Below, in pieces: positions 16,362 through 39,358 of a DNA stretch of 64,000 bases. The position numbers were made by a program, and so were the translations under genes. A model generated the notes under the pieces. The model did no database searches. It was not told the origin of the DNA and saw nothing but the letters and a program-made list of their open reading frames with translations. The stretch covers positions 372,001 through 436,000 of the forward strand of contig NZ_JAGGLC010000002.1 of NCBI RefSeq assembly GCF_017874235.1, read 5' to 3'. Source of the stretch: Halolamina salifodinae. Its GTDB lineage: Archaea > Halobacteriota > Halobacteria > Halobacteriales > Haloferacaceae. Positions within the stretch are counted from its first letter, which is position 1; each line of letters starts with the position of its first letter.

Positions 16362-17540
16362 ATGGCAGATCTAGCCATAAGCAGCAGGGAACACGAAAGT
16401 CGACGCACCGAACTCCTCGACCGGGCGTCCGCAGATGGGCACGACGGTGTCGTCCTGTTCGGCGCGTTGGATATCCAGTACGCGACCGGGATGTACCACT
16501 TGCCCACAGAGCGTCCTTGTATCGTCGGGATGACTCGGGAACGGGTTGAGGCGGTCGTCCCCCGACTGGAGAAGGAGCATGCCGAGCGCGAGGAGTTCCC
16601 CTTCGACGATGTAACCGCCTACTTCGATTATCCGCAAGGGGACCCGATGCAACGCGCAGCCGAGATGTGCGAACGACTCGGGATCGCCGACGGGTCCATC
16701 GCGGCTGATGCTGATGGGAGCCCAGCACGCAACGGGTACTCCGGCCCCGCGCTATCGGACGTGATCCCCGGCTCTGTCGACGTGACTGAGTACATCACCG
16801 ACATGCGCGAAGTCAAGTCTGCGGCCGAAATCGATCTGATCCGGGAGGCTAGCGTATGGGCGAACTACGCCCACCGCCTCCTGCAAGAGAAAATCGAACC
16901 GGGACGGCGACCGGTCACGATCAGTAGCGAGGTCGAAGCCGAAGGGACGAAAGTCATGCTCGATACGCTGGGTGACCGATTCGAGATGACTGACTGGAGT
17001 GCTCCGGTAATGTGTAAGTTCACGACGGGCGACGTGACCGCCGAGCCCCACAGCGTGGACCAGACGAACCGCATCCAGCAGGGAGACAACATCGTCTCCA
17101 TCGTTAAACCCACCGTCGGTGGCTACACCACGGAACTCGAACGAACCATGTTCGTCGGGGAGCCCTCGGCGGAGCAGCGAGGGTACTTCGATATTATGTC
17201 GGAGGCACAGGATCTAGCCATCGAAGCCATCGCGCCCGGTGTAGAGTATGCAGCCGTCGAAGAGACAGTAGTCGACTACTTCGAGGAACAGGGCGTTTCG
17301 GAATACACCAAACACCACGTTGGACACAATATCGGACTCGAGGGCCACGAGCGTCCCTTCCTCGACGTGGACTACGACGGGACAGTTCGTGAGGGCGAAC
17401 TGTACACCGTTGAGCCGGGGTTCTATGTTCCCGGTGTCGGCGGGTTCCGGCACTCTGATACAGTAGTCGTCACCGAGGATGGAACTGAGCCGCTGACGTA
17501 CTACGAACGAGACATTGACGCGCTCACGGTTAATTTCTAG
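16362..17540 (+). CDS. Creatinase-type M24 protein lacking metal ligands
   Basis: 392 aa. Creatinase N-domain (about 1-150) and M24-fold C-domain (about 155-390). The M24 metal site is lost: the first Asp position reads SIVKPTVGG, the second Asp is Glu in GYTTELERTM, and the last Glu is Ser in GGFRHSDTV. The catalytic His (HHVGHNIGLEGH) and Glu (VEPGFY) remain. Pseudomonas creatinase has the similar GYYTALERTLF, and the ectoine hydrolase group is also metal-free. So this is more likely a C-N hydrolase of a small cyclic or guanidino/amide compound than a peptidase. First gene of a three-gene operon. Confidence 0.82.
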   Translation: MADLAISSREHESRRTELLDRASADGHDGVVLFGALDIQYATGMYHLPTERPCIVGMTRERVEAVVPRLEKEHAEREEFPFDDVTAYFDYPQGDPMQRAAEMCERLGIADGSIAADADGSPARNGYSGPALSDVIPGSVDVTEYITDMREVKSAAEIDLIREASVWANYAHRLLQEKIEPGRRPVTISSEVEAEGTKVMLDTLGDRFEMTDWSAPVMCKFTTGDVTAEPHSVDQTNRIQQGDNIVSIVKPTVGGYTTELERTMFVGEPSAEQRGYFDIMSEAQDLAIEAIAPGVEYAAVEETVVDYFEEQGVSEYTKHHVGHNIGLEGHERPFLDVDYDGTVREGELYTVEPGFYVPGVGGFRHSDTVVVTEDGTEPLTYYERDIDALTVNF

Positions 17541-17543
17541 ATA

Positions 17544-18707
17544 ATGAAAGATATCAGCCCTAGCCCCCACGACCGATTCGTCGACGACGACCGGCTTGGT
17601 CGGGTGCGTAACCACATCGCAGAGACCGACCTCGACGGGTTCGTTGCGTTCTCGCCGCCGAACTCCTACTATCTCAGCGGCTGTTACGCGGGAATGTACT
17701 CACGGCCGGTCATCGGTCTCGTCACGCTCGAGGAGAGCGTTTTCGTTGGGCCGCGGCTAGAGGAGCGCAAGGCAGACCGCACTGCATGGACCGACCGCGC
17801 GCTCTTCTATGAAGACAGTGACAGTCCTTTCGAGGTGCTGGCCGAGGCAGTCCCCGAGAACGTGGATGTGCTCGGATACGATGCTGACCACGCCCGCCCT
17901 GAGTGGGTAAACGAACTGGAAGGACGTGTTGAGCCCGAATTTGTCGACGCCTCGGATCAGTTCCTTTCGCTCCGTATCGTCAAAACCGCCTGGGAGCTCG
18001 ACAAAATCCGACGGGCACAGGATCTGGCAAACGCGGGCTGTGAGGCGATGTTCGACGCCATTCGCTCGGGTGTTCCCGAAATCGAGGCGGTCGAGGAAGT
18101 CCAGCAGGCCTACTACCGGACGTATCTGGAGCAGCATTCCGAGTTCGACATCGGCACCGCGAACGAACTGGGCCAGTACGGGTTTGCAAGCGTCCTCAGC
18201 GGCCCACATGCACTGGAGCCCCACAGCCTGTCATCGTCCCGTCAGATCGAGTCTGGCGATAGCGTTGTCGGAATATCACTGCCATCGATTCAGGGCTACA
18301 TCTGCGAGGAGGAGCGGACGTTCCTCGTGGGAGACGTCGACGACGAAGTTACCGACGCGATGGAGACGCTGGTCAACGTCCGTGAGCAGGTAATCGACCG
18401 GATCGGGCCGGGTGAGAGCGTCGCAGAGATCGACGCTTGGACTTTCGATCAGATCGAGCAGGCCGGGCTCGCCGACAAGGTTCAACACCGGACTGGCCAC
18501 GGCGAGGGGATCACGATCCACGAGAATCCGGCGCTGAACGCGCAGTCGCCCGGTGAGCTGAAACCGGGAATGGTGATCAGCGTCGAACCTGGCCTCTACT
18601 TCCACGAGAAAGGGAACGCACTCCGGCACTCCGACACTCTGATCGTGACCGAGAACGGTGCAGAGCGAATCACCGAGACAGACGCTGACGTTCTCACTGT
18701 CAACTGA
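17544..18707 (+). CDS. Second creatinase-type M24 protein lacking metal ligands
   Basis: 387 aa, paralogous to the preceding gene and 3 bases after it. The metal Asp positions read GISLPSIQGY and CEEERTF. The last Glu is again Ser (ALRHSDTLIV). The His (HRTGHGEGITIHE) and Glu (VEPGLY) are kept. Divergence from its neighbour is considerable, so the pair may form a heteromer or act in sequence. Its stop overlaps the ATG of the amidohydrolase by one base (TGATG), so the three genes are a coupled unit. Confidence 0.82.
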   Translation: MKDISPSPHDRFVDDDRLGRVRNHIAETDLDGFVAFSPPNSYYLSGCYAGMYSRPVIGLVTLEESVFVGPRLEERKADRTAWTDRALFYEDSDSPFEVLAEAVPENVDVLGYDADHARPEWVNELEGRVEPEFVDASDQFLSLRIVKTAWELDKIRRAQDLANAGCEAMFDAIRSGVPEIEAVEEVQQAYYRTYLEQHSEFDIGTANELGQYGFASVLSGPHALEPHSLSSSRQIESGDSVVGISLPSIQGYICEEERTFLVGDVDDEVTDAMETLVNVREQVIDRIGPGESVAEIDAWTFDQIEQAGLADKVQHRTGHGEGITIHENPALNAQSPGELKPGMVISVEPGLYFHEKGNALRHSDTLIVTENGAERITETDADVLTVN

Positions 18708-19879
18708 TGTCGACGTATGATCTCCTCCTCAACGGGGACGTATGGGATGCTCGGAACGGCCGGCGGCCGGACCACTGGATTGCAGTACAGGAGGGCGCCG
18801 TTGTCGACGTCTCAGCTGAGAAGCCCGGCGAGGCGGTCGTCGAACGAGCGGCGGGGACGATCATCCCCGGTCTCTGTGATATGCATGTCCACCTCGTGTG
18901 GGATGGGTCGGGCGATCCTGTCGAGACGCTCCGAAACGAGTCCGAACAGGAGACCACACTCCGAGCCGTCCACAACGCTCGTGAACAGCTTCACGGCGGA
19001 GTGACAACGGTACGGGACGTGGGGAGCGTCGATGACATCGCGATAGCCGTCAGCCGGGCCGTGAAGGACGGCTGGACCGAGGGGCCGCGAACGTACGCGA
19101 GCGGCCGAACCATCATCATCTCCGGCGGCCACGACCCATTCTGGGGGATCGAAAGTGACGGCCCCCGCGCGTGCCGGCAAGCCGTCCGCAAGCTCCGAAG
19201 CGCGGGCGCAGATCTCATCAAGGTAAGCGCTACGGGCGGTGTCTACGGGCAAGCGGTCGGCGAGGACCCTGGCGTCGCCGAACTCTCCCTCGAGGAACTC
19301 ACCGCCGTCGTCGATGAAGCTCACAGGTTCGAGATGGATGTCGCAGCCCATGCAGTCGGCCACGAGGGCATCGCGAACGCCATCGAAGCGGGCGTCGACA
19401 CAGTCGAACACGGTAACCAACTTGACGAAGACCTGGTCGAGGCTTTAGCCGCATCCGATGCCGCGTACGACCCAACACTGTACGTCTACGCGCGGATCGC
19501 AGCGGGCGGCGACGGCAATATTCCGAGCTACGCCAAACGGAATGCCCAGCGTGTGTACGAACAGCATGCGGAGGCATTCCGGACAGCGCTGGATACGGAT
19601 ACCCGCCTCCTCGTCGGTAGCGACGCCGGGTCGCCGGACGTTCCTCATCCGGGACTCCACCTCGAACTGCAGCAGATGGTCGCGGAAGGGATGGACCCGT
19701 CGGCAGCACTGGAGGCGGCGACGCTTGCGGCGGCTAAAGAGCTTGGGAGACCGGATCTGGGCGTCGTTGAGGCTGGCACGACGGCCGACCTCGTCTGCTT
19801 CGATGCCGACCCGTGCTCGGATGTGACCGCAGTCGCCACTCCCAAGCATGTCGTCAAGGATGGCGTCCTCGTCGACTGA
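18707..19879 (+). CDS. Amidohydrolase, HutI/Xaa-Pro dipeptidase-like
   Basis: 390 aa metal-dependent TIM-barrel amidohydrolase (COG1228). The HxH metal pair is in LCDMHVHLVWDG near residue 58. The candidate bridging Lys is in GADLIKVSATGG near 170. Further His occur in AAHAVGHEG and VEHGNQL, and the metal Asp is in LVGSDAGSPDVPH near 305. The family includes imidazolonepropionases and L-Xaa-Pro prolidases. In this operon it probably cleaves the product of, or feeds, the creatinase-like enzymes. Start ATG at 18707 overlaps the upstream stop. Confidence 0.8.
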   Translation: MSTYDLLLNGDVWDARNGRRPDHWIAVQEGAVVDVSAEKPGEAVVERAAGTIIPGLCDMHVHLVWDGSGDPVETLRNESEQETTLRAVHNAREQLHGGVTTVRDVGSVDDIAIAVSRAVKDGWTEGPRTYASGRTIIISGGHDPFWGIESDGPRACRQAVRKLRSAGADLIKVSATGGVYGQAVGEDPGVAELSLEELTAVVDEAHRFEMDVAAHAVGHEGIANAIEAGVDTVEHGNQLDEDLVEALAASDAAYDPTLYVYARIAAGGDGNIPSYAKRNAQRVYEQHAEAFRTALDTDTRLLVGSDAGSPDVPHPGLHLELQQMVAEGMDPSAALEAATLAAAKELGRPDLGVVEAGTTADLVCFDADPCSDVTAVATPKHVVKDGVLVD

Positions 19880-19937
19880 GACCCCAACAGGGCACGGACG
19901 GACAGAGAACCACCGGCCGGTCAGTTGAGGGCCGCCC

Positions 19938-19981
19938 CGTCTTTTTCACTCGAAGCGACTGCCGGCTCGGCGAAGAAAAAG
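19938..19981. terminator. Bidirectional T-rich termination region
   Basis: Between convergent genes there is a CGTCTTTTTC run on the plus strand (19938-19947) and, about 30 bases on, GAAGAAAAAGC (T-run on the minus strand, 19971-19981). Both fit archaeal T-tract termination for the operons ending at 19879 and 20006. Confidence 0.45.
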
Positions 19982-20005
19982 CGACGCGTCAGCGCAGTCG
20001 GAGGA

Positions 20006-21856
20006 CTACGCGTAGCCGAGCGCCTCGGCCGCACCGAAGAGGCGCTCGACGACCATGATCGCGATCAGCGTGATCAGGATATTGATCGTGGCGATGGCCG
20101 CGATAATCGGTGTCGCACCGAACTGCATCTGTGAGAAGATGCGGACGGGAACGGGAACGATCCCCGGACCCTGCATGAATACAGCGATCTGCAGGTTACT
20201 GTAGCTGATGATGAACGCCAGAATCCCGGCCGACATGATTCCCGGGAGCAGACACGGCACCGTCACCCGGAGGAACGTCTGGATCTCGTCAGCTCCCAAC
20301 ATCTGTGCCGCCTCTTCGAGGTGTTCGTCGAAGTTCTCCATCGCGATGAGCATCGACTGCGTCGCAAACGGCGTGGCGTACACGGCGATAGCTATCGAGA
20401 GCCCCAAGATGTTCCCGACGAGTCCGAACTGGTTTAAGAAGATCAGTAGCGCGATCCCCAGGATGAGCTGCGGGATAATGAGGGGGAGGAACGTCGCCGA
20501 GTTGATCGCCTGCTTCATCGGGAAGTCGTAGCGGCCGATGGTGTAGGCCGCACTGAAACTCAACGTCAGGGAGATGAGTGTCGCGATGATAGAGTACTGG
20601 AAACTCACGACGAACGACGAGATCCACCGGCCACTGTTGACGGCCTCAATGTACCACTGAAGCGTGGGCGTTTCCGGCGGAATCACATAGAGTCCCTGAC
20701 TGAAGCTGATCAGGACTGCGAAGATGACGGGAATCAACAGGAAGACGAACGCTGCCACGAGGCCCACACGCAACAACAGCGCTCCGAGCGTCTGGGTTCC
20801 CACGACTCGCTTATCGAACGGAAGCTTTTCGAGCAGACCAGCGAAGGAGAACGCACGCTCCCGACCGATTTCTGCGGACTCGTCCGAGACGAGGCTGTAC
20901 TGCACTCCTTGCCTGCTTGACCCAACCTCCATGACGCGGCCGTATATCGTGATGAGGGCAAGTGCCACTGCGAGTAGGACGAACGACATCGCAGCACCGA
21001 GCGGCCAGTTTAGACCCGCTGCGGCCGCCTGATAAATCAGAGGGCCGATCATCGGAACTTGCGGCATACCGATGAATACGGCAGTGGAGAAGGTCCCCAT
21101 CGTAAGCACGAACGAGATCAAGGTCGCCCCGACAATACCAGGCATAGACAGTGGGAACGTGACGTACCAGAAGGTCTGAAGCGGGTTCCCGCCGAGGCTT
21201 TGTCCTGCCTGTAGGAGATCTTGGTCAATCGAAAAAAGGTTGCTCAGCAGGATGAGAACTGCGAACGGCATAAGGACCGACGCGATAGCGATTATGAGTC
21301 CGGGTTTCGTGTTAAGTAATGTGTACTCGATCCCGAACACGCTGATGATCTGGTTGACAAGGCCACTTGTGTCGAGGAGCGCGTACCAACCGAACGCGCG
21401 AACAACGTTCCCGACCAGCATCGGAGCTACTGCCGCGAGGATAAGTACTTTTGAGTACTTCCACGACGAGAAGACGATGAAGTACGCGATGGGGTAGCTG
21501 ACGAGGATCGCGATGAGTGTCGAGATTAGGCTGATTTCGACCGTGAGAAGTAGTGTATCCACGTATAACGATGTCGTGAAGACCTCAACGTAGTTCTCCA
21601 GTGTGAGTGTGGCCTCCATCGTCCCGGTGGCGACGTTGGTAAAGAAGCTCACAGCAAACATGTAAACCACCGGAATCGCGAAGAATACCCCCATGTAGAG
21701 AAGGTATGGGCTCATGATGAAGATTGGAGCCCATTTCGAGTCCTTGTGTTCCTGAACGAATGATAGCAGTCGCTCGTGTAGCGGCTCGAAGAGGGGGTTG
21801 AGCCACGTCTTCATCTTGCTAAACACCGTCGATCCGATTTGTGATGACGCAGCCAT
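20006..21856 (-). CDS. Fused two-domain ABC permease (PotBC-like)
   Basis: 616 aa, about twice a normal PotB or PotC. Two BPD_transp_1 halves can be seen: helices at about 45-310 with a coupling loop around AGQSLGGNPLQTFWYVTFPL, then a charged linker (about 320-350), then helices about 360-610 with EEAAQMLGADEIQTFLRVTVP. So one chain forms the whole membrane channel, as in ferric/thiamine-type and some haloarchaeal importers. Its ATG shares one base with the ATPase stop. Third gene of the leftward operon beginning at 24058. Confidence 0.87.
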   Translation of the reverse strand: MAASSQIGSTVFSKMKTWLNPLFEPLHERLLSFVQEHKDSKWAPIFIMSPYLLYMGVFFAIPVVYMFAVSFFTNVATGTMEATLTLENYVEVFTTSLYVDTLLLTVEISLISTLIAILVSYPIAYFIVFSSWKYSKVLILAAVAPMLVGNVVRAFGWYALLDTSGLVNQIISVFGIEYTLLNTKPGLIIAIASVLMPFAVLILLSNLFSIDQDLLQAGQSLGGNPLQTFWYVTFPLSMPGIVGATLISFVLTMGTFSTAVFIGMPQVPMIGPLIYQAAAAGLNWPLGAAMSFVLLAVALALITIYGRVMEVGSSRQGVQYSLVSDESAEIGRERAFSFAGLLEKLPFDKRVVGTQTLGALLLRVGLVAAFVFLLIPVIFAVLISFSQGLYVIPPETPTLQWYIEAVNSGRWISSFVVSFQYSIIATLISLTLSFSAAYTIGRYDFPMKQAINSATFLPLIIPQLILGIALLIFLNQFGLVGNILGLSIAIAVYATPFATQSMLIAMENFDEHLEEAAQMLGADEIQTFLRVTVPCLLPGIMSAGILAFIISYSNLQIAVFMQGPGIVPVPVRIFSQMQFGATPIIAAIATINILITLIAIMVVERLFGAAEALGYA

Positions 21857-22947
21857 TATTGATCACCGAGAAGGATCGGGGCATCCGGATCGAACGAAAC
21901 TGTGACCTCGTCCCCTGGGGAAACATCGATCGTGCCACGGACCGGACTCGTTACCTGTACCTCCGTTCCGTCAGCGAGTTCAACGAAGTACTCCGCCGAA
22001 GATCCGAGATACGTGACTTCCCGGAGTGTGCCCGACAGTGTATTCGTGCCGTTGCCCGACCCAGACTGGAGCGACAGCCGTTCTGGTCTGAGCAAGATCG
22101 TTACCGAGTTACCATCCTCTAGATTCCCGTCGTGAACCGACGTATCCGGGCCGGCAGTGATGTCGACATCGAGTTCCGTGGCTATCTCGTACGAATCTGT
22201 GTTCGACGTGATCGTTCCGTCGACGAGGTTTGCGCTACCGATGAAGTCAGCGACGAACTCGCCGGCCGGTTCCTGGTAGACCTCTGTCGGAGCACCCACC
22301 TGTCTGATCTCCCCGTCGTTCATCACCGCCATCCGGTCTGAGATCGCGAGTGCCTCTGTCTGATTGTGTGTCACATAGACCATCGTGACGTTGAGCTCAC
22401 GGTGGAGGCGCATGATCTCCATGCGCATCTCCTCGCGGAGCTTCTTGTCGAGACTAGAGAGCGGTTCGTCGAGGAGCAACACGTCGGGTTCTACAACCAA
22501 GGAACGGGCGAGGGCGATTCGCTGTTGTTGCCCACCGGAGAGGTTCTCCGGGTATCGGTCGCCGACCTCCGGGAGGGAAACCATCTCTAGTACCTCCTCG
22601 ATGCGATCGTCGATCTCTGACTGGTCGACGCCCTTCATTTTCAGCCCGAACGCGATGTTGTCGGCGACGGTCATGTGCGGGAACAGCGCAAAATACTGGA
22701 AGACCATGCCGATGTCGCGCTCGTATGGAGGGACATCGCTCACATCGTTCCCGTTGAGTTCGACGACGCCTTCGGTCGGGGTCTCGAACCCCGCGATCAT
22801 GCGTAGTGTCGTGGTTTTCCCGCAACCACTCGGTCCCAACAGCGTTATGAGCTCTCCACGTTCGATCTCGAGGTCCGCATTGTTAACGGCCGTAAGGCTA
22901 CCGAACTTCTTCGTGACTTGCCGGAGATTGACGACATTATCAGACAT
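21856..22947 (-). CDS. PotA-like ABC transporter ATPase
   Basis: 363 aa. ABC domain with Walker A LLGPSGCGKTTT (near residue 36), signature NLSGGQQQRIALARSL, Walker B VLLLDEPLSSLD and H-loop YVTHNQTEA. A C-terminal TOBE/MOP-like domain (about 270-360) is typical of spermidine/putrescine and maltose-type ATPases. It energises the fused permease directly downstream. A gap of 34 bases separates it from the binding protein. Confidence 0.9.
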   Translation of the reverse strand: MSDNVVNLRQVTKKFGSLTAVNNADLEIERGELITLLGPSGCGKTTTLRMIAGFETPTEGVVELNGNDVSDVPPYERDIGMVFQYFALFPHMTVADNIAFGLKMKGVDQSEIDDRIEEVLEMVSLPEVGDRYPENLSGGQQQRIALARSLVVEPDVLLLDEPLSSLDKKLREEMRMEIMRLHRELNVTMVYVTHNQTEALAISDRMAVMNDGEIRQVGAPTEVYQEPAGEFVADFIGSANLVDGTITSNTDSYEIATELDVDITAGPDTSVHDGNLEDGNSVTILLRPERLSLQSGSGNGTNTLSGTLREVTYLGSSAEYFVELADGTEVQVTSPVRGTIDVSPGDEVTVSFDPDAPILLGDQ

Positions 22948-22981
22948 TGATTGGTGTTAAATTTGACTGTAGTTGGCCGAT

Positions 22982-24058
22982 TTAGCTGTGTTCGTCGATG
23001 ATTTCCTGAACGCGCTGCTGCCAGTCGCTCCGATTCTCCGCGATAAAGTCGAATGGCGGGACCTGAAGTAGTTCAAGGTCCTCCTGCTGGATTAGCTTAT
23101 CCTGGACATCCTCGGGATACTCAATGTCGGGAATGGGGTTGGTGTAGTACATCTGTTCGGCGATAACCTGTGCCCCTTCCTGCTGAAGAGTATAGTTGAT
23201 GAACTCACCGGCCGCATCGACTTTCTCCTCCGGGATGTTCCGCGGGATCGCGTTTCCGAAGTTCGTTGTGAACGCACCAGCGCTCGGAATCGAGAACGAG
23301 ACTGGTGCACCACTGTCTGCCCATGAGGCAGCACGCGCGCTCCAGTACCGTGAGATGTCTAACTCACCGTTCTGCCATCGGTTCCCGTACTCGTCACTGG
23401 ACGTGATATAGACGGGGTCCATTTCTGCAACGACTTCTTCATACATATCGAACGCCTGATCCATAGCAGTCGGGTCCTCGCCGTCCGTCTGATAGAGTGC
23501 GAAGGCAAGTAGGTCGTGAGTCGGGTCCTGAGTGTACAGGCCAACACGGCCCTGGTATTCGGGATTGAGATACGCGCCCCAGGATTCAGGGGCGGAGTCC
23601 ATCGTTTCTGTGTTGTAGAGTAGGGAACTCGCCGCGAAAATCTGGAGCGTCCAGTAGTCGGATTTGAACTGGCTCGGTACTTCGGATATTCGAGGGACGA
23701 TTTCTTCGTTCAGCTCGAGCCAGAGATCTTCGTTTTCCCCGCGAACTAACCCACCGCCGTCCTGCTGTGAGACGTCTACCGGCGGATCATCCCGTTGGGA
23801 GATCAGCCTATTGAAACGGTCAGTGTTGTCCCCGACTACGTACTCCAGGCTGATTCCTGTGTCTTCCTCGTATCTATCACAAACCGCATCAATCATCGTC
23901 TCCTGCCAACTGCCGCCCCAGATACCGACAACGATCGAGTTGGGCCCATCCCCACCACCTCCGAGACAACCCGCTAGCCCTGCTGCTCCGGCAGCGCCAG
24001 CACCTGCACGTTTGAGGTATTCTCGTCGCAGTAGCCCCTGACTGGTATCATCTGGCAT
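22982..24058 (-). CDS. PotD-like extracellular substrate-binding lipoprotein
   Basis: 358 aa. Tat-type signal (LRREYLKRAG, residues 9-18) and lipobox (AGLAGC, Cys31) followed by a Gly-rich linker. The bilobal solute-binding fold of the spermidine/putrescine class follows (VVGIWGGSWQETMIDAV, YNTETMDSAPESWGAYLNPEYQGRV split across the hinge). Substrate unknown. Polyamines are the family default. Beside an amidohydrolase/creatinase-like operon, another cationic or zwitterionic nitrogen compound is plausible. First gene of the leftward transporter operon. Confidence 0.87.
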   Translation of the reverse strand: MPDDTSQGLLRREYLKRAGAGAAGAAGLAGCLGGGGDGPNSIVVGIWGGSWQETMIDAVCDRYEEDTGISLEYVVGDNTDRFNRLISQRDDPPVDVSQQDGGGLVRGENEDLWLELNEEIVPRISEVPSQFKSDYWTLQIFAASSLLYNTETMDSAPESWGAYLNPEYQGRVGLYTQDPTHDLLAFALYQTDGEDPTAMDQAFDMYEEVVAEMDPVYITSSDEYGNRWQNGELDISRYWSARAASWADSGAPVSFSIPSAGAFTTNFGNAIPRNIPEEKVDAAGEFINYTLQQEGAQVIAEQMYYTNPIPDIEYPEDVQDKLIQQEDLELLQVPPFDFIAENRSDWQQRVQEIIDEHS

Positions 24059-24200
24059 AGGTAGTCAAGCGGAGGAGCTGTATAATATATCTGCGGGAAT
24101 AGGCAAAAGTCACTCCCATATTGGCGATTGTGAACCCGATATTCTCCGGGTGGGTTTCTAATACCCGAACTACTAAGGGTCCTAGAGAATATGCTACGAT
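24059..24200. promoter_or_regulatory. Divergent promoter region: transporter and IclR gene
   Basis: 142 AT-richer bases. For the leftward transporter, a minus-strand AGATATATTATACAG (about 24083-24097) lies about 30 bases before the start at 24058. For the rightward IclR gene, CTACTAAGGG (about 24170) is about 30 bases before 24201. A CTAATACCC element at 24159-24167 matches one upstream of the creatinase-like operon and is a candidate IclR or partner site. Confidence 0.45.
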
Positions 24201-24950
24201 ATGGCAGGGGATGAAAAACTGACCACGACCGCAACATCAATCCGACTTCTAGAGGCAGTCTCTGAACAGGAGGGGGCAACGCTCCGCAGCCTCGTCAAAG
24301 AGACAGATCTGGCGAAAAGCACGGTCTATAAACACCTATCGACGCTCCAGGCGAACAATCTCCTGATAAAAAAGGGGGAGCAGTATCTGCTTGGATTACA
24401 CCACCTCACACTCGGCAAGCGGGCAGTTGAGATGCGCGACTCCTACCGACTCGTAGAGAAGAAGATCGACGAACTCAGAAATCGGACTGAGGCGGACATA
24501 GACTTCACTGTAGAGGAGAATGGGCGACTGATTCTCGTGTCGGAAGCCACCCGAACAATGAGTGAGTCGATCTTCGTTCCCGGAAACGAGTTCTATCTCC
24601 ACAACACGGCAGCTGGAAAGGCGATCCTTGCGTCGTACTCCGATAATCGTGTCGACGCTATTCTCGACAGGCACGGTTTACCTCTACGGACAGATAAAAC
24701 GATTCAGTCCCGCTCCAAGCTTAAATCTGAGCTCAAATCTATCCGGGAGAAAGGGTATGCGCTGAACGATGGGGAGTGCATTGAAGGGTATCGCTCCGTC
24801 GGTTCGGTTATCATGGACCCAAGCGACTCTGTTTTGGGCGCGATCAGCATCGGCGGTCCCGCCTATCGGGTCGACCGTGCTCGGTTGGAGGATGATTTCT
24901 CAGAACTAGTGTGTAATACTACTTCAGAGATCACAGAATCGCTTTCGTAA
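24201..24950 (+). CDS. IclR-family transcriptional regulator
   Basis: 249 aa. N-terminal winged HTH (about 10-70: ATLRSLVKETDLAKSTVYKHLSTL) and a C-terminal IclR effector domain (about 85-245) with HNTAAGKAILASY and YALNDGECIEGY, which shape the ligand pocket. Divergent from the PotD-like transporter, so it likely controls that operon in response to its substrate. It is a paralogue of the regulator at 27631. Confidence 0.88.
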   Translation: MAGDEKLTTTATSIRLLEAVSEQEGATLRSLVKETDLAKSTVYKHLSTLQANNLLIKKGEQYLLGLHHLTLGKRAVEMRDSYRLVEKKIDELRNRTEADIDFTVEENGRLILVSEATRTMSESIFVPGNEFYLHNTAAGKAILASYSDNRVDAILDRHGLPLRTDKTIQSRSKLKSELKSIREKGYALNDGECIEGYRSVGSVIMDPSDSVLGAISIGGPAYRVDRARLEDDFSELVCNTTSEITESLS

Positions 24951-25129
24951 ATCGCCTAATCCCGAATATAGTTTCGTATACATGGTCTATTATATCATAC
25001 GCCTTTATATGCCCTGTCTGGTGGTTTGAGAACGCCCCGTTATAAGCATATTACCGTGAGTAAATGGCTGTGTTTTGTCATATATCGGTATCCACCTGAT
25101 CAACGAATTGGATTATGCCTCGGGGTAAA
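24951..25129. other. AT-rich intergenic DNA
   Basis: About 180 bases between the IclR stop and the transposase-like remnant. They are clearly more AT-rich than the flanking genes (for example ctattatatcatacgcc). No ORF or structured RNA was recognised. Confidence 0.4.
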
Positions 25130-25575: not shown

Positions 25576-25601
25576 CCGTCATCATCTGTTCGTACACTGT
25601 T

Positions 25602-27293: not shown

Positions 27294-27630
27294 GCTAATT
27301 CAGTAACGTACTCCTTCAAAAGGCCGATTATACCGGATATTGTTGGGGTTTTTCGACGGGTGATGTGAGTATTTCACAGGAAATTCTCTGTTAACCGTGC
27401 CCACAGCAACGAAGATGATACTCCCAAGTCGACCCTAGTCACCGATATTAGATGAAACGAAACGTTATGATATAGTCAAAAATTGGAAAGACAAAGAGAA
27501 CCCTGTTGGTTTAGAGTATGCCCTTTCACTTAAACCTGAAGGTACTCTTCGGTAAACGGGTTGGCAATCTGGTGCCATGAATGATTGCACAGTAAATTTA
27601 TTGTGCAAAGTTGTGGGTGGCGTCGGAAAC
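27294..27630. other. Intergenic region between DUF885 gene and second IclR gene
   Basis: 337 bases, AT-rich on the right half. A minus-strand TTTTGAAGG (about 27315-27323) lies about 25-30 bases before the DUF885 start. No protein-like frame or repeat was found in the rest. Confidence 0.4.
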
Positions 27631-28425
27631 TTATGATCGGTTCGCGTACTCCGAATAGATCGCCTCCTGCTGGGAGCGAAGCGATTCCTTGATTGCATCG
27701 ACAGCATCCAAGAGAACGTCAGCTAACTCGTTTTTAAGTGTCTCCTCCGTCACACGGTACACCGGTCCGCCGATAGTGAGTGCACCAATGACTGACCCGT
27801 CCAGCCCTTCGATCGGAGCCCCAATCCCGTGATATCCCTCGAAGCACTCCCCGTCGTTGTACGAGTAGCCCTTCTCCGAGACGGCTTCAAGTTGTTCGTG
27901 CAACTGTTCCTCATCAGTGATCGTATTCGGCGCCTGTTTGGGGAGCCCCCACCGATCCAGTATGGTCTGAACCTCCTCCTCAGAGTATTCAGAGAGGATC
28001 GCTTTCCCTGCTGCCGTATTATGCGCAAACAACCGCACCCGATCATGGCTCACGCTCTCAGAGTGGAACACGAGGTTGATCCGGCCAACTTCTTCAACGA
28101 GGAATTCGACCTCCGACTCCGTCTCCGATGTGAGTTCACGCACCTTCTTTTCGATTATCTGATACCCCGGCTTCCGCCTCCTCGCGCTCTCGCTGAACTC
28201 TCTGAATCGGAGTCCGATCCAGTACTGTCCGTTCTCACGAATGACGAGGCCTTGCTGATTGAGCGTATTAACATGCATATACACGGTGCTTCGGGAGAGA
28301 TCGAAGTGCTCCTGGACTCCGCCTAGGGTCGCGCCGTTCGATCTCCTAATGAAATCGAGTATTTCGATCGCTCGGTCCGTCGTTTTATGCACCGAATTTG
28401 TGTTGTTCGTTGGCATGGTGCTCAC
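27631..28425 (-). CDS. IclR-family transcriptional regulator
   Basis: 264 aa. Winged HTH at about 15-75 (GATLGGVQEHFDLSRSTVYMHV) and IclR effector domain with HNTAAGKAILSEYSEEEV and YSYNDGECFEGYHGIGAP. It shares these core motifs with the regulator at 24201 but differs elsewhere, so it probably senses a different ligand. Neighbours suggest control of the DUF885 gene and/or the rightward P5C dehydrogenase operon. Start may be the first or the fourth codon (both Met). Confidence 0.87.
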   Translation of the reverse strand: MSTMPTNNTNSVHKTTDRAIEILDFIRRSNGATLGGVQEHFDLSRSTVYMHVNTLNQQGLVIRENGQYWIGLRFREFSESARRRKPGYQIIEKKVRELTSETESEVEFLVEEVGRINLVFHSESVSHDRVRLFAHNTAAGKAILSEYSEEEVQTILDRWGLPKQAPNTITDEEQLHEQLEAVSEKGYSYNDGECFEGYHGIGAPIEGLDGSVIGALTIGGPVYRVTEETLKNELADVLLDAVDAIKESLRSQQEAIYSEYANRS

Positions 28426-29078
28426 ATAGCACTGCTATCACTTTAATGTCCGTATTTCCTAACTGTTTATATGAAGGTGTCTGTTTGGGCTGAGCGTGAT
28501 CGATCCTCGTTCGCCCTCGAAACCCCTGATATTGGTCGATTCAATCAGTTTGAGCTAACACACAACGATATATGGTTAGTGGTACCGCGCCTCGATGCCC
28601 GTTTATTGTATCTTCTCATATTCTAGTGCCCATATAAACGGCCTATTATTGGAAATCGTATCCTATCGGCCCTACTGTACCTGTAATATCCATATTACCT
28701 TATTTAGAGATAGTAATTATGAAGATGGCTGATGTGAAATACACTTTGTATATCATGAACGAATGCTATCAACGTGGAATACCGGGTGCAACACGGCTCA
28801 CATTCGTGGAAAACTATAGAGAGCCTCAATGTTCGAATTACTCGAACATCGCCACCAACTGAGTGGCAGTACTGTATGGGGCTCCAGCTCAGGTTCGTTC
28901 CTACCGAGGTTGATCACGAGAACGCCGTGGAGAGGATCAGCAAGCGTCATCCAACCACGCGAATCAAGTTATCAACCCACGAGAGCCACGAAACTTGGCG
29001 ATCTAACGGATTCAACCGCGGTATGTAGAAAGTTGATCAGGACGAAGCTATAAGTGAATCCACTATATTCATCTAGGC
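28426..29078. other. Long AT-rich intergenic region with promoter of the P5C dehydrogenase gene
   Basis: 653 bases. The first 300 are AT-rich and carry the IclR promoter. The middle (28760-29020) is GC-richer with only short, unrecognised frames, possibly a dead gene fragment. The right end has TATAAG at 29049-29054, about 27 bases before the GTG start at 29079, a good leaderless promoter. No tRNA or repeat seen. Confidence 0.4.
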
Positions 29079-30662
29079 GTGCAACCCGTCGAGTATGAGG
29101 ACGAACTGACGCACCTCACACACAAACAGAACGATTCTCTTGATGAGTTTCATCGATCCTACGAGGCAGCAGTCGAATCGGTGAAACGCGAACTGGGAGA
29201 GTTCTACACGTTGGAAATCGACGGGGAATCGGTCGAGACTGACGACCATTTCCCTGTCGAGGCCGCGGGCGATACTGACGTGACGATCGGGGAGTTCGCC
29301 TCGGGCGGCGAAGAGGAGGTTGACTCAGCGGTCGACGCCGCCAAAAATGCGTTCCCCGACTGGGAGGCGAAAGATCCGGAGGAGCGGGCGGAAGTGTTCA
29401 CGCAGGCGGCCGAAATCATGCGGGAGCGGAAGTTCGAACTAGCGGCCGCGCTCTCGCTCGAGAACGGGAAGAATCGAACCGAGGCGATGGCTGACGTCGA
29501 CGAAGCGATCGACTTCCTCGATTTCTACAGTCGAGAGTTCACCCGGTCGAACGGCTATCAGTTCGACACGGGGGAACCAACGCCCGGCCAACATACGACG
29601 AACCTGCTGCGGCCGTACGGGGTCTTTGCCGTCATTTCCCCGTTCAACTTCCCGATGGCCCTTCTCGTCGGGATGTCGACCGGTGCACTACTCACCGGGA
29701 ACACCGCGGTGGTCAAACCGGCAAGCGTCACCCCGCTCGTTGCCCAGAAATACCTGGAAATCCTCGACGAGGCGGGAATCCCTGACGGCGTTATCAACCT
29801 CGTCCTCGGCAGCGGCCGGGACGTCGGCCAGCCGCTCGTCGAGCACGAGGACGTCAAAGGTGTCGCGTTCACGGGCTCGCGGGAAGTCGGTCTCGGCATC
29901 CAGGAGACGTTCATGGACCTCGGGAAGCGCGGACCCGTGATCGCCGAACTCGGCGGGAAGAACCCGGTCATCGTCAGCGACGAGGCCGATCTCGACGACG
30001 CCGTCGAAGGTGTGATGAAGGGAGCGTTCTCCTTCAGCGGCCAGAAATGCTCCGCAACGTCGCGGGTCTACGTGTACGACGACATCATCGACGAGTTCAC
30101 CGATCGACTCGTCGCAGAGACCGAAAAGCTGGACGTCGGTCGCCCGGAGGACCGCGAGACGTTCATCTCGCCGCTGATCGACGACGGTGCGCTGGACCAC
30201 TACCTCACGATTTCGGAACAGGCACGCGAGGACGGGACGGTACTGACGGGCGGAGCAGAGGTCTCGGACCCGGATCTCCCGGATGCCCGGTACGTCGAAC
30301 CCACGGTCGTCACGGACATCCCCCACGAGCACGAACTCGCGCGTGAGGAGCACTTCGTCCCGTTCCTTACCGTTCACCCGGTCTCGGACCTCGATGAGGG
30401 GGTCGAGAAGTCGAACGATAGCGAGTACGGACTGTGTGCTGGGCTCTTCTCGACGGACGACGACGAGATCGACCGGTGGTTTACCGATGTCGAGTCCGGC
30501 ATGTGCTACGTGAACCGGTCCCAGAGTGCGACGACCGGGGCACTGGTCCAAGCCCAGCCGTTCGGCGGCTGGAAGTTCTCAGGGACGACAGGGAAGTTCG
30601 CGGGCGGGTACTGGTACCTGCAACAGTTCATGCGCGAACAGAGCCGAACCCACGTGAAGTAG
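29079..30662 (+). CDS. Aldehyde dehydrogenase, probable 1-pyrroline-5-carboxylate dehydrogenase
   Basis: 527 aa. Catalytic Cys in FSGQKCSATSRVYV near residue 320 and general-base Glu in AELGGKNPV near 288. The long N-terminal arm (EFHRSYEAAVESVKRELG) and the C-terminal ATTGALVQAQPFGGW followed by FAGGYWYLQQFMREQSR are typical of P5CDH rather than generic ALDH. It oxidises glutamate-5-semialdehyde to glutamate with NAD. Starts with GTG, supported by the TATA box 27 bases upstream. It would complete proline use with the dehydrogenase at 14219, and it heads a unit with the FAD oxidoreductase at 30756. Confidence 0.83.
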   Translation: MQPVEYEDELTHLTHKQNDSLDEFHRSYEAAVESVKRELGEFYTLEIDGESVETDDHFPVEAAGDTDVTIGEFASGGEEEVDSAVDAAKNAFPDWEAKDPEERAEVFTQAAEIMRERKFELAAALSLENGKNRTEAMADVDEAIDFLDFYSREFTRSNGYQFDTGEPTPGQHTTNLLRPYGVFAVISPFNFPMALLVGMSTGALLTGNTAVVKPASVTPLVAQKYLEILDEAGIPDGVINLVLGSGRDVGQPLVEHEDVKGVAFTGSREVGLGIQETFMDLGKRGPVIAELGGKNPVIVSDEADLDDAVEGVMKGAFSFSGQKCSATSRVYVYDDIIDEFTDRLVAETEKLDVGRPEDRETFISPLIDDGALDHYLTISEQAREDGTVLTGGAEVSDPDLPDARYVEPTVVTDIPHEHELAREEHFVPFLTVHPVSDLDEGVEKSNDSEYGLCAGLFSTDDDEIDRWFTDVESGMCYVNRSQSATTGALVQAQPFGGWKFSGTTGKFAGGYWYLQQFMREQSRTHVK

Positions 30663-30755
30663 GTAGCCAAGGACAACAGTCAAGATATTGAATGGAACGG
30701 AACAACCGGTGGCTGCAAGAGCGGCCAAAACGAACCGACAGCAAGGGCAAGGTCA

Positions 30756-31937
30756 ATGACTAACGAGTATGGCGGGGACCCGGAGAACGTCGTCGTTGTC
30801 GGCGGCGGCATCATCGGGCTTGCCTCCGCGTACTACTTGGAGCAGCGAGGCGCCGACGTGACCGTCCTCGAAAAATCCAGTATCGGGGCGGGGAACACGG
30901 GTCGTGCGAACGGCGGCATCCGAGCGCAGTTCACGTCCCCAGTCAGTTCGGCACTGTCAAAGGAAAGTATCGAAGTCTGGGAGTCGTTCGACGAACAGTT
31001 CGGGGTCGACATCAAATATCGGCGACCGGGCTATCTGTTCTTGGCTCGCACTGAATCGACGGCCGAACAGTTCAGGGAGAACGTGGCGAAACAGAACGAG
31101 CAAGACATACCCAGTCGGTTCGTTACGCCACAGGAGGCAAAAGAGCTCTGCCCGGGACTCTACCACGAGGAGTTCGTCGGTGGAACTTACTGTCCAATCG
31201 ATGGGATCGCTGATCCGCATCTCGCACTCCAGGGGTTTTCGGACGCTGCACGCGAATCCGGCGCCGAAATCCGAACCAAAACCAAAGTCGTCGATGTCCT
31301 GCAGAACGGTTCGGGGGAAGTGACCGGCGTCGAAACCGAGGCAGAAACGATTCCCGCTGATTTCGTCGTCAACGCCGCCGGCGCCTGGGCTAAACAGGTA
31401 GGAAAGATGGTCGATATCGATCTCCCTGTTGATCCGAAACGCCGGAAACTGATGGTTGTCGACCCTGAGGAGCCGGTCAGCGAAGACGTTCCGTTCACGG
31501 TTGACAGCGATCACGGGTTCCACTTCAGACCAGAACGGAAAGGCGCTGCTGTCGCCGGTGGACATTTCAGCGACGCCGATCCCGAGGAGGACCCGGATGA
31601 CTTCTCAACTTCGACATCAATCGACTGGGCTGCCGAAGTTATCGAGCGGGGAGCAGAGGTTGCGAGCTACTTCGGGCCCGAAACCCGAGTAAATCAGGGA
31701 TGGGCCGGACTCTATGCCGTGACACCGGATCACCACCCGATACTCGAGGAGACGATCCCGGGGTTCATCAACGCCGTTGGGTTCTCCGGACACGGGTTCA
31801 TGCAGTCACCGGCGACGGGCCAAATCGTGGCGGAAATAGTCACTAACGGGTCGCCATCGCTCGTGGATGTTTCGTCCCTGACCGCAGACCGGTTCGCCAA
31901 CGGTGGTCACCTGCGGGAAGGGACAGTGATCGACTGA
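30756..31937 (+). CDS. FAD-dependent amino acid/sarcosine oxidoreductase (DAO family)
   Basis: 393 aa DAO-family flavoenzyme. FAD motif VVGGGIIGLASAYYLE at about residues 13-28 with the downstream Glu in VLEKSSIGAGNTGR. Substrate-domain features are the FHFRPERKG strand and the C-terminal NAVGFSGHGFMQSPATGQ. It resembles sarcosine oxidase beta, glycine oxidase and the PDH-beta type L-proline dehydrogenase. So it could oxidise proline, hydroxyproline, sarcosine or another secondary amine. Next to P5CDH, proline or a proline derivative fits best. With the creatinase-like proteins, sarcosine is the alternative. Confidence 0.78.
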   Translation: MTNEYGGDPENVVVVGGGIIGLASAYYLEQRGADVTVLEKSSIGAGNTGRANGGIRAQFTSPVSSALSKESIEVWESFDEQFGVDIKYRRPGYLFLARTESTAEQFRENVAKQNEQDIPSRFVTPQEAKELCPGLYHEEFVGGTYCPIDGIADPHLALQGFSDAARESGAEIRTKTKVVDVLQNGSGEVTGVETEAETIPADFVVNAAGAWAKQVGKMVDIDLPVDPKRRKLMVVDPEEPVSEDVPFTVDSDHGFHFRPERKGAAVAGGHFSDADPEEDPDDFSTSTSIDWAAEVIERGAEVASYFGPETRVNQGWAGLYAVTPDHHPILEETIPGFINAVGFSGHGFMQSPATGQIVAEIVTNGSPSLVDVSSLTADRFANGGHLREGTVID

Positions 31938-32132
31938 ACGGGGCGATCCCGTACCGTGCTTCGGTAACGCAATCCAGATGTGCGTCCACTGGATCGCTGT
32001 CAAAAATCCCGTCCGGGTCGGCCTCCGCTCGTCGCCGATTGCTGACCGAGGTACTTATAGAGGGGATGGCCCGAAGTGAGCCAACGCCTGCGAGGCACGT
32101 CGACCCGATAGAGGATCAGTCCCTGCCTCTGG
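31938..32132. other. Intergenic region between convergent genes
   Basis: 195 bases between the convergent oxidoreductase and aldolase genes. No clear T-tract terminator, ORF or repeat was found. A TATA-like gtacttatagag near 32052 faces a short frame not judged to be a gene. Confidence 0.35.
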
Positions 32133-32912
32133 TCACTCTAGTTCGGCCACCGCTTCTTCGAGCGATGCGTCCTCGTGAACGATCGCAGAAACGGCGGCCG
32201 TCATCGCGCCCGGGTCCTCGTGCTGGAAGACCGAGCGGCCCATCGAAACCCCGACCGCGCCCGCATCCATGACTCCGCGAACTTGGGTCAACATCTCGCG
32301 GTCCGGTCGCGGTGATCCACCCGCCGCGATAACCGGGCGTGCCGTCGCGTCAACGACCTGTTCGAAGCTTTCCGGGTCGCCCGAGTATCCGGTTTTAATG
32401 ATGTCTGCTCCCAGCTCCTCCCCAAGCCGGGCTGCATGGGCAAGCTGGTCGGGATTCTCCTCGTCGATCCCGGGCCCCCGAGCGTAGGTCATCGCCAACA
32501 CCGGAACCCCAAGTTCGGCGGCCGACTGGACAACCCCTGCAAGATCCTCGATCTGCTTTGGCTCGTAGTCGCTTCCCACGTTGAGATGGAGCGAGACCGC
32601 ATCAGCACCTCGTTGAACGGCCTCCTTGACCGTCCCGGTGAGGCGTTTATCGTTCGAATCAGGCCCGAGCGTCGTCGACGCGTTCAGGTGAATGACGTAC
32701 CCAGCGCCGTTCTTGTTCGGGTGAACGCGATCCGCTAACCCCTTCTGTGTCAGGACGGAGTCCGCGCCAGCAGCCGTCACCTGATCTATCGTCGATTCGA
32801 TGTCTTTGAGTCCGTCGGTGGCGCCGATGGTGATCCCGTGGTCCATCGGGACGTTCAGCATCTTTCCGTCTGTGCCGATTCGGTCGAGTCGGGCTGCGAT
32901 TCCGGTCTGCAT
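32133..32912 (-). CDS. Class I aldolase, ADTH synthase / DhnA family
   Basis: 259 aa, the DhnA-type class I aldolase fold. LNVPMDHGITIGAT near residue 19 and the Schiff-base Lys in DIIKTGYSGD near 175 are visible, and VIAAGGSPRPDREM binds phosphate. The closest haloarchaeal family is 2-amino-3,7-dideoxy-D-threo-hept-6-ulosonate synthase of the archaeal shikimate route. No aroB'-like partner (dehydroquinate synthase II) is present. So it may be a divergent catabolic aldolase. Start at 32912 (MQTGIAARLDRIG); upstream codons in the open frame are Arg/Ser-rich and were excluded. Confidence 0.75.
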   Translation of the reverse strand: MQTGIAARLDRIGTDGKMLNVPMDHGITIGATDGLKDIESTIDQVTAAGADSVLTQKGLADRVHPNKNGAGYVIHLNASTTLGPDSNDKRLTGTVKEAVQRGADAVSLHLNVGSDYEPKQIEDLAGVVQSAAELGVPVLAMTYARGPGIDEENPDQLAHAARLGEELGADIIKTGYSGDPESFEQVVDATARPVIAAGGSPRPDREMLTQVRGVMDAGAVGVSMGRSVFQHEDPGAMTAAVSAIVHEDASLEEAVAELE

Positions 32913-33296
32913 CGTCCCGGTATGGGAGACAGTCTGTAAAGAACGTTGGGCTCGACGCAATCAACGGTCACGCCCGACTCAGCGCGGAAGCGGCGATACG
33001 ATCACGTGTTGAACCCCAGGGCTGGAGGGATCGATGTTGTTGCCAGGGCCGGAGGGATCGATGTCGTTGCTGCCGTCGACCCCGTAATCGGGTACGGACT
33101 CCACGTTCTCTCCGAAGTAAAAGCCGAAACTCGAAATCAACGAACTTCTCTATCCAGTCGTTTGAGACGATATTGCTCAACACCACCGATCAGACGGACT
33201 CCCGTCCGGGCGGCAGCCATTTGTCCCCGATACGCCGGACCAAGAGATTATCTCTGGTTGGCAAACATTTATTGTAGATGGTTCCACCGATACTGT
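32913..33296. other. Intergenic region with a promoter for the creatinase-like gene
   Basis: 384 bases. Includes the aldolase promoter on the minus strand, the 27-bp repeat described separately, and TTTATTG at about 33267-33273, about 25-30 bases before the ATG at 33297. The frame is open from 32946 into the next gene, but the translation is repeat-derived and basic, so it is not counted as coding. Confidence 0.45.
33017..33070. repeat. 27-bp tandem repeat, two copies
   Basis: Unit 33017-33043 is repeated at 33044-33070 with two mismatches (core GGAGGGATCGATG). It lies in the noncoding stretch before the M24 gene. Period 27 keeps the frame, producing two copies of AGGIDVV if translated. Confidence 0.8.
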
Positions 33297-34517
33297 ATGG
33301 CATTGACTAGCGTGCCAACCGAGGAGTTCGAACATCGAATCAAAACCGTTCGGGAGAAGATCGCTGATGCGAGCGTCGACGCACTCGTTCTGTTCTCGTC
33401 CACGTCTATCGAGTGGCTCAGCGGGTTCCACCACCTTCAGACCGAGCGCCCCGTCTGTCTGGCTGTGACGGACGACCATACCGCGATTACCGTCCCGCGG
33501 CTCGAACTCGATCGGGCTGTCGACGACGAGTTCCCGCTGCTGGAGACGGTGTACAACTACTACGACTACCCTGGCGGAACCCACGAGGGGACGACGTACT
33601 ACCAGCACTCCTCCGTGACGCCCGAGGAGAAGATCGCCGAGATGCTCTCGGACCTGGGCGTCGAGACCGCCGTCGCCGATATGAACGGCGCGCCGGGCTA
33701 CTGGGGGTACAGCGGCCCTGCGCTCGACGAGTTCGCCGATGTCGACGTGGCCAAAACGGTCGAGTGGATCACCGACCTCCGGAAGGCCAAATCCGACGTG
33801 GAGATCGAGCTCATGGAGGAGTCCGCGAAATGGGGCAACCTCGCGCACAAGAAGCTCGAAGAGTACGCCGAACCCGGAAAACACGAGCTCTGGGTCGCCA
33901 AGCGTGCCAGCCTCGACGCGTCGATGTCGATGCTTGACGCTCTCGGTGATCGCTACGACTCGCACCTCCGCGGTGGGTTCCCGGCTCACGCGGGCTTCCT
34001 CTCGGGGTCGAACACGTGGCTTCCTCACGGCCTGACGGAGAACCGAGAGCTCGAGTACGGCGACATCATCATCACCGGCGCGTCCGCGAACATCGGCGGT
34101 TACACGACCGAACTCGAGCGGACGATGTTCATCGGCGACGCGCCCGATCATCACCGGGAGTACTTCGACCACATGGTGGAGATGCAGGAGATTGCCATCG
34201 ACGCCATGGGCCCGGGTGTCAAAGCATCGACGGTCGACCAGGCGGTCCACGACTACTGCAAGGAACAAGGGCTCCTCGACTACACGCAGCACCACACCGG
34301 CCACAACGTCGGCCTCGGTGTCCACGAGCGGGAGTTCCTCGACCGTGGCAGCGAGGAGGTGCTCCGTTCCGGCCAGTTCTACACTGTCGAGCCGGCGCTG
34401 TTCATCCCGGATGTCGCGGGCTACCGCCACTCCGATACGATCCTCGTCACTGAAGACGGGACCCGGTCGCTCACGTACTACCCGAAGGACCTCGAGAGCA
34501 ACATCATCAACATCTGA
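33297..34517 (+). CDS. Third creatinase-type M24 protein lacking metal ligands
   Basis: 406 aa. Creatinase N-domain with STSIEWLSGFHHLQTERP near residue 40 and an M24-fold C-domain. The metal ligands are replaced as in the proteins at 16362 and 17544: IITGASANIGGYTTELERTM near residues 258-278 has no Asp in either site, and the last Glu is Ser in GYRHSDTILV. His (HHTGHNVGLGVHE) and Glu (TVEPALF) persist. GYTTELERTMF is identical over 9 of 11 or more positions to the 16362 protein. So the two probably share a chemistry. A TATA-like box at about -27 supports the start. Confidence 0.83.
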   Translation: MALTSVPTEEFEHRIKTVREKIADASVDALVLFSSTSIEWLSGFHHLQTERPVCLAVTDDHTAITVPRLELDRAVDDEFPLLETVYNYYDYPGGTHEGTTYYQHSSVTPEEKIAEMLSDLGVETAVADMNGAPGYWGYSGPALDEFADVDVAKTVEWITDLRKAKSDVEIELMEESAKWGNLAHKKLEEYAEPGKHELWVAKRASLDASMSMLDALGDRYDSHLRGGFPAHAGFLSGSNTWLPHGLTENRELEYGDIIITGASANIGGYTTELERTMFIGDAPDHHREYFDHMVEMQEIAIDAMGPGVKASTVDQAVHDYCKEQGLLDYTQHHTGHNVGLGVHEREFLDRGSEEVLRSGQFYTVEPALFIPDVAGYRHSDTILVTEDGTRSLTYYPKDLESNIINI

Positions 34518-39319: not shown

Positions 39320-39358
39320 TCAACCACAGACATCTCACCAACACCTCGAAATCCAACA

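Follow-up and report, generated by a model that had tools for sequence, protein, structure and literature searches.

The 64,000-nucleotide window analysed here (Halolamina salifodinae contig NZ_JAGGLC010000002.1, positions 372,001–436,000) carries three genes, P0001, P0002 and P0003, whose products belong to the M24 family but depart from the metal site of its canonical members (Table 1). Their open reading frames (ORFs) lie at the expected coordinates and the translations are free of internal stops; the ATG at 33297 of P0003 agrees with the ortholog in Halocatena marina (locus L126), whose longer ORF contains MALTSVPTEEFERRI. All three proteins pass the gathering cut-offs of PF00557 (129–141 bits, cut-off 23) and PF01321 (34–63 bits, cut-off 22). 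Our preferred reading, held with slightly less than even confidence, is that they are active pita-bread hydrolases in which a creatinase-type pocket replaces the two-metal centre of the prolidases, and that they act on small N-substituted, proline-like compounds.

Site residues were read from an alignment of 68 rows comprising the window proteins, their relatives, canonical M24 proteins of this and other genomes and, for reference, S. meliloti EutD, a Paroceanicella protein resembling creatinase and the solved sequences of two prolidases and two creatinases. One relative with a frame problem (L176) was left out of counts, trees and alignments. We label the five canonical metal ligands D1, D2, H, E1 and E2. 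All 14 canonical rows (the two solved prolidases, two M24 proteins of the window, four others of the same genome and six from other haloarchaea) read D,D,H,E,E. P0001–P0003 do not have this five-residue dinuclear site of the M24B Xaa-Pro peptidases: D1 is replaced by Ile or Gly and E2 by Ser, D2 has become Glu, and the His and the Glu of the EPG motif are retained. A sequence-only reading of the window had described the three proteins as keeping the metal His and first Glu, which is borne out, and as being without metal ligands. The losses at D1 and E2 are real, but that second description is too strong, because Glu in place of Asp does not render the D2 site inert and could still bind metal. 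The possible ligands remaining in P0001 are E258, H322 and E351.

Two residues beyond D2, P0001–P0003 have the Glu of an ERT motif, corresponding to creatinase Glu262, where the canonical rows have T, S or Q. The creatinase-like motif GYTTELERTM singled out by the sequence-only reading is present in P0001 and P0003; P0002 reads GYICEEERTF, and the ERT Glu is found in all three. P0001–P0003 share the fold of creatinase (1chm, 7yto and 1kp0), and equivalents of creatinase His232, Glu262, His324, Glu358 and Arg64 are all found in them, the His232 equivalent occurring in every counted row of the alignment. Creatinase has lost D1 and E2 as well, but reads N,A,H,E,H at the five sites, with Ala at D2 and His at E2 instead of the Glu and Ser of P0001–P0003. 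The stretch containing creatinase Arg335 is a gap in the three proteins, and Phe62 is replaced by T, Y and T; identity to creatinases is 20–25% in the Foldseek rows of the P0001 and P0002 models. The roles of these residues in creatinase (His232, Glu262, His324, Glu358, Arg64, Arg335 and Phe62) are assumed in what follows.

Eight pocket positions, R51, H230, E258, E260, H322, H329, E351 and S365 in P0001 numbering, are invariant in all 40 aligned sequences, comprising P0001–P0003 and relatives on named contigs. With 31 of 392 positions invariant overall, the hypergeometric P for all eight is 6e-10, a value that serves as a guide only, as the positions were picked by function and the sequences share ancestry. 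The invariance of the pocket speaks for catalysis and against decay. AlphaFold2 models of P0001 and P0002, with mean predicted local distance difference test scores of 94.9 and 88.9, match the pita-bread fold across nearly their full length in Foldseek. Query-normalised template modelling (TM) scores place creatinases in the lead (best 0.87 and 0.88, versus at most 0.82 for prolidase-type chains among the 50 rows listed), but the TM-score was withdrawn as a witness for creatinase, since the ranking flips with the other normalisation. Overall shape thus does not decide between creatinase and prolidase. In a profile search of the PDB the top matches are prolidases (best 217 bits), with creatinase 1chm in sixteenth place (5e-50). 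Nothing in that search scores like a family member and, with the best match a prolidase at only 217 bits, apparently no member has been solved.

The claimed likeness to ectoine hydrolase (DoeA/EutD; 6twj, 6twk, 6yo9 and S. meliloti EutD) extends to the fold, the loss of canonical ligands and the side of the tree on which the proteins fall. EutD reads E,P,Y,M,T at the five sites, without the metal His and EPG Glu that P0001–P0003 keep, and has Ser at the position of the ERT Glu, where P0001–P0003 and the creatinases have Glu. The three proteins miss the cut-offs of both ectoine hydrolase models, TIGR02993 (37.8–57.9 bits, cut-off 613) and NF038259 (35.3–73.6 bits, cut-off 575). Their best sequence match is the archaeal Xaa-Pro dipeptidase PepQ (NF040821; 1pv9), which has the same two domains and similar proline-type surroundings; compared with PepQ, they are without two of the five metal ligands and have one more changed to Glu. 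They score 126.9, 131.5 and 131.2 bits with NF040821, whose equivalog cut-off is 630, and the canonical M24 proteins of the window also fall below it (184 and 92 bits), so that this model alone does not separate canonical from ligand-poor M24 proteins. All of the NCBIfam cut-offs listed are missed by P0001–P0003. Orthology to creatinase or ectoine hydrolase was rejected on the missing Arg335 and Phe62 and on the model cut-offs and, judged by sequence, the three proteins are not demonstrably creatinases, ectoine hydrolases or prolidases. One study describes DoeA as creatinase-like within M24 and its deletion as stopping growth on ectoine as carbon source (PMC3187862). In another, Alcaligenes faecalis creatinase retains >80% of its activity with ethylenediaminetetraacetic acid, and Mn and Mg enhance the activity (PMC7568399).

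In the full, unrooted tree of 67 rows, the 53 ligand-poor rows are separated from the metal prolidases by a branch with 97/92 support, and the creatinases and EutD lie on their side of that branch; several long branches were flagged. P0001, P0003 and a fourth ligand-poor protein encoded elsewhere in the genome, here called the core copy, form a 100/99 clade beside Deinococcus and Bacillota (99/94), which the creatinases join at 81/72 only. The likeness to creatinase thus holds for the pocket equivalents and the side of the tree, but not for Arg335 and Phe62. When the five site columns were masked and four long rows removed (50 rows), the ligand-poor set required two changes and came out as a single group in 35% of 200 bootstrap trees. 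A single origin of ligand loss, favoured by the full tree, was rejected for this reason, and P0002 may, from these sequences, have lost its ligands independently. The sequence-only reading had counted a position inside the Xaa-Pro aminopeptidases as evidence against it; the full tree does not place the proteins there, although P0002 may be separate in the masked tree.

The genome has 12 PF00557 matches, of which P0001–P0003 and the core copy share the ligand-poor pattern. A further ORF (L035, G000:C1:205089-205520) scores 38 bits to PF00557 and reads LHASLTRT in the region of the second Asp; it apparently represents a separate degenerate M24 line. A search with P0001 at E 1e-40 finds homologs in 116 of 292 haloarchaeal genomes, the metal-ligand letters having been read in the fetched sequences. 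Close P0001 orthologs (at least 59% identity) occur in 15 of those 116 genomes, this one included, and orthologs in other haloarchaea are 57–73% identical; most of the remaining matches are core-type copies with identities in the forties of per cent. P0002 orthologs occur in five of the 292 genomes, again counting this one, and there are ten P0003-type copies at 63% identity or more, the window's own among them. Outside the haloarchaea, a scan of GTDB contigs gave 404 stretches with the pattern, 373 of them confirmed, and the best 80 include two Alicyclobacillus species and a Fermentithermobacillaceae metagenome-assembled genome. Plasmid records add Deinococcus relatives at about 40% identity and alphaproteobacteria, one member of the Bacteroidota and Cytobacillus at 26–31%; the Neorhizobium relative has Ala in place of the last-site Ser. 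The uncharacterised proteins of Deinococcus and alphaproteobacteria, annotated as 'Xaa-Pro peptidase family' or 'aminopeptidase P family', and those of the unannotated Alicyclobacillus contigs share the ExERT pattern, most with RHSD. They are 38–45% identical to P0001 in Deinococcus and Bacillota and about 30% in alphaproteobacteria, with carriers nearby as in the island but different accessory genes. As far as sequence can tell, then, the ligand-poor pattern is widespread, in Haloarchaea, Deinococcus, Bacillota, Alphaproteobacteria and Bacteroidota, and P0001–P0003 are not a set peculiar to this island, because the family is common in haloarchaea and present in several bacterial phyla. Among the matches listed, we noticed no described member of the subfamily in a literature coverage that leaves out most subscription journals. 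A different M24 relative, on plasmid pRiA4 (L201, 5962-7170), has most ligands replaced (C,C,R,E,G). Its gene comes immediately ahead of a Pot-type ABC transporter and follows SIS and PfkB genes, perhaps as part of an opine or sugar-amine system.

Table 1. The ligand-poor M24 genes and other features of the island (coordinates within the window, except for the core copy)
Feature	Coordinates	Strand	Remarks
Proline dehydrogenase	14219..15058	-	PF01619
Canonical M24 protein	15118..16224	-	Ligand set complete, D,D,H,E,E (alignment)
P0001	16362..17540	+	Group A M24; five sites I,E,H,E,S; ERT Glu present
P0002	17544..18707	+	Group D M24, rare; five sites I,E,H,E,S
Amidohydrolase	18707..19879	+	PF01979; nearest NCBIfam model Xaa-Pro dipeptidase, 253 bits (cut-off 500)
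Pot-type ABC permease, fused	20006..21856	-	
ABC ATPase of Pot-type system	21856..22947	-	Reading and homology to annotated ABC ATPase in L063
Pot-type substrate-binding protein	22982..24058	-	
IclR-type regulator	24201..24950	+	
Aldehyde dehydrogenase	29079..30662	+	Nearest to P5C dehydrogenase models, 470 bits (cut-off 648)
DAO-type FAD oxidoreductase	30756..31937	+	Nearest solved chain 1y56_B
DeoC/LacD-type aldolase	32133..32960	-	TIGR01949 above cut-off
P0003	33297..34517	+	Group C M24; five sites G,E,H,E,S
DUF1028 protein	34653..35342	+	
Dpp-type ABC transporter genes	35442..41435	both	Two permeases, binding protein, two ATPases
Second canonical M24 protein	41507..42706	+	D,D,H,E,E
Proline racemase family protein	47384..48403	+	Best model trans-3-hydroxy-L-proline dehydratase, 359 bits (cut-off 540)
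Core copy, fourth ligand-poor M24	G000:C5:273322-274491		Elsewhere in own genome

P0001 and P0002 are separated by three bases and the amidohydrolase gene starts within the P0002 stop, with a one-base overlap, which makes 16362-19879 look like a single transcription unit. Solved relatives of the amidohydrolase include the L-arginine carboxypeptidase Cc2672 and a Xaa-Pro dipeptidase. The canonical M24 gene upstream is kept beside P0001–P0002 in three other loci (L063, L070 and L120). Other enzymes of the window belong to proline-type families. In the Dpp-type ATP-binding cassette (ABC) transporter, the binding protein was scanned by model and the remaining genes were named by homology to annotated genes of L065. 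Two further regions flank the island. At 6100-11316, upstream, genes for a binding protein, an ATPase and a pair of permeases look, by eye, like an ABC transporter of the nucleoside type. At 50665-57077, genes for an enolase-superfamily dehydratase, MBL-type and Gfo/Idh-type proteins, a 2,5-dioxovalerate dehydrogenase (821 bits, NCBIfam cut-off 750) and an FAH-type protein resemble, partly by eye, a pathway of pentose oxidation adjoining the proline island.

The neighbour scan covered, within the fetched stretches, 22 distinct P0001 loci counting that of the window, 12 loci of P0003 and 82 core-type rows; of these rows three are bacterial, some lie on short contigs and at least two are present twice; duplicates (L118, L119, L121, L122, L123, L125, L083 and L130) were removed from the P0001 and P0003 lists. 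An uptake system is present in all 22 P0001 loci, mostly as the adjoining gene (a PutP-like symporter in 15, a Pot binding protein in six and Dpp in one), in keeping with the catabolic setting proposed from the sequence alone. One aldehyde dehydrogenase (at least 88% identity) and an HTH_10 protein are each found in eight of the 22, and PutA is near four, the window among them. P0003 loci have DppB (at least 69%) in seven of 12, PutA in four, HTH_10 in three and the same aldehyde dehydrogenase (at least 80% identity) in two, so the dehydrogenase and the HTH_10 regulator are common to orthologs of both proteins. DUF1028, DAO, aldolase and canonical M24 genes recur beside P0003 orthologs, the DUF1028 gene in five of 14 rows when duplicates are included. 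In Halocatena marina a single cluster contains P0001, P0003, Dpp, DAO, aldolase and a proline racemase family gene.

No PutA, symporter, Pot binding protein, DppB or HTH_10 was found in the 82 core-type rows, and the only island gene matched there was the aldehyde dehydrogenase, at 38% (L160). In 23 core-type loci (e.g. L157, 9270-9908) an ORF that is HAD-like by eye lies about 1.3 kb downstream, which may mean a genuine association or gene order passed down by descent. Two Alicyclobacillus species have consecutive genes for an NCS2-type permease (named by likeness in L156), a ligand-poor M24 protein and a creatininase-family protein (L182, 6593-9957; L156, 3361-6778). In Terrarubrum (L113, 9956-11985) and Natronosalvus (L115, 11998-14052) the gene immediately after the relative encodes an alpha/beta hydrolase, and a peptide-type ABC transporter lies close by. 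Creatininase-family genes also lie near two haloarchaeal relatives (L068 and L115). A tblastn search with the Alicyclobacillus creatininase-family protein had no match in the 22 P0001 or 12 P0003 loci, but it also missed the annotated L068 gene and is therefore not sensitive.

Urease was taken as an indicator of urea release. Matches at E 2.3e-14 or better, after 28 weak, short matches had been dropped, define 79 of the 292 genomes as urease-bearing (looser tallies give 107 genomes at E 0.001 and 97 over cut-off). No urease match was found in this genome (92% complete) or in five genomes of the same genus. Strong matches are rarer in family-bearing genomes (15/116 versus 64/176; Fisher P 7e-6, uncorrected for shared ancestry), although the genomes with P0001 orthologs reverse the trend (8/15 versus 71/277; P 0.03, uncorrected). 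Urea release as a general function of the family was rejected, because, taken as a whole, the family is not accompanied by urease.

We propose that the His equivalent to creatinase His232 would activate water, that the carboxylates of E258, E260 and E351 (P0001) would hold a cationic amidinium or ammonium group at the former metal place and that R51, from the N-terminal domain, would hold the substrate carboxylate. A pocket with holders for both a cation and a carboxylate would imply a small N-substituted amino acid as substrate. The released amine would most likely be proline or a proline-like imino acid, passed on to PutA and Δ1-pyrroline-5-carboxylate (P5C) dehydrogenase, since proline and aldehyde dehydrogenase neighbours are common to P0001 and P0003 orthologs, which also have uptake systems nearby (22/22 and 7/12 loci). 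Such common modules point to a proline-like product; the argument is circumstantial, as the relatives are not independent. The three copies may handle different N-substituents, and the island's canonical M24 proteins would still act as conventional metal prolidases. The sequence-only reading had proposed hydrolysis of C–N bonds in small amidino, amide or cyclic compounds; the creatinase-like pocket agrees with this, but the context is of a proline type rather than a creatine type.

Several observations weigh against this proposal. E258, H322 and E351 could hold one metal. The Arg64 equivalent also occurs in most canonical rows and hence is not diagnostic as a marker of new chemistry. Metal prolidases come out on top in Foldseek E-values and sequence scores, and lead in target-normalised TM-scores (up to 0.89, versus 0.85 and 0.84 for the creatinases). 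The P0001 loci with PutA are a minority, and three of the four belong to two genera within a single family. The core copy, a member of the P0001/P0003 clade, has other recurring neighbours (in up to 23 loci) and is without the proline context, so the biochemistry may not concern proline. Finally, the partners of the bacterial relatives vary, from creatininase-family proteins and alpha/beta hydrolases to TRAP and BCCT carriers and peptidases.

The main rival explanation, which we consider less likely, is that P0001–P0003 hydrolyse imidodipeptides or small peptides with a single metal on Glu-His-Glu and widen the prolidase repertoire of the island. Its three possible ligands, the D2 Glu, the His and the EPG Glu, are invariant, and the prolidase-leaning sequence scores and Foldseek E-values fit it. 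So do peptide-related neighbours: the Dpp peptide carrier is frequent beside P0003, Opp-type genes accompany DUF885 and an aminopeptidase in Deinococcus loci, and S10 and M20 peptidases and M32 carboxypeptidases lie near other relatives. E2 serves both metals in canonical M24 enzymes, however, and is Ser in 40/40 sequences, while the ERT Glu is invariant in the family and absent from the 14 canonical rows. The PutP-like symporter of 15/22 P0001 loci would, moreover, be unusual as a peptide carrier.

Less probable again is that the proteins are true amidinohydrolases, converting creatine, guanidinoacetate or N-amidino amino acids to urea and an amino acid. The creatinase-like pocket would suit such a reaction, as would the creatininase-family gene that follows the relative in the two Alicyclobacillus species, a Haladaptatus P0003 ortholog near hydantoinase and creatininase-family genes and the resemblance of the DAO-type flavin adenine dinucleotide (FAD) oxidase to sarcosine oxidase models. 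The absence of creatinase Arg335 and Phe62 argues against it, as do the lower frequency of urease across the family, a trend that P0001-ortholog genomes taken alone reverse, and its absence among the matches of this genome and its five congeners; four creatininase-family neighbours, in addition, score 70–100 bits (creatininase cut-off 235) and higher to MftE. Least probable of all are non-catalytic relatives that bind a peptide or metabolite, like M24 pseudoenzymes such as PA2G4 (one is described in PMC3888471): metal ligands have been lost, but eight pocket positions are invariant while the ligand positions changed in one consistent way, and an uptake system lies near every one of the 22 P0001 loci.

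The creatinase-type pocket acting on N-substituted, proline-like compounds remains our preferred reading. A wider form of it, to which we give a low probability, is that a family filed as peptidases and widespread in Archaea and several bacterial phyla forms a class of its own, of metal-independent hydrolases of N-amidino or cationic N-substituted prolines, with the island combining three specialised members, carriers and the enzymes of proline oxidation. If so, the hydrolysis of such prolines would be the proline counterpart of creatine breakdown. Annotated records of the ligand-poor family mostly say Xaa-Pro peptidase, whereas the known enzymes use a metal pair that cannot be built canonically here, and the family is probably mislabelled in databases. 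If the preferred reading is true, a large set of database labels would be wrong, and a second, creatinase-like use of the prolidase fold would serve proline-type nutrients.

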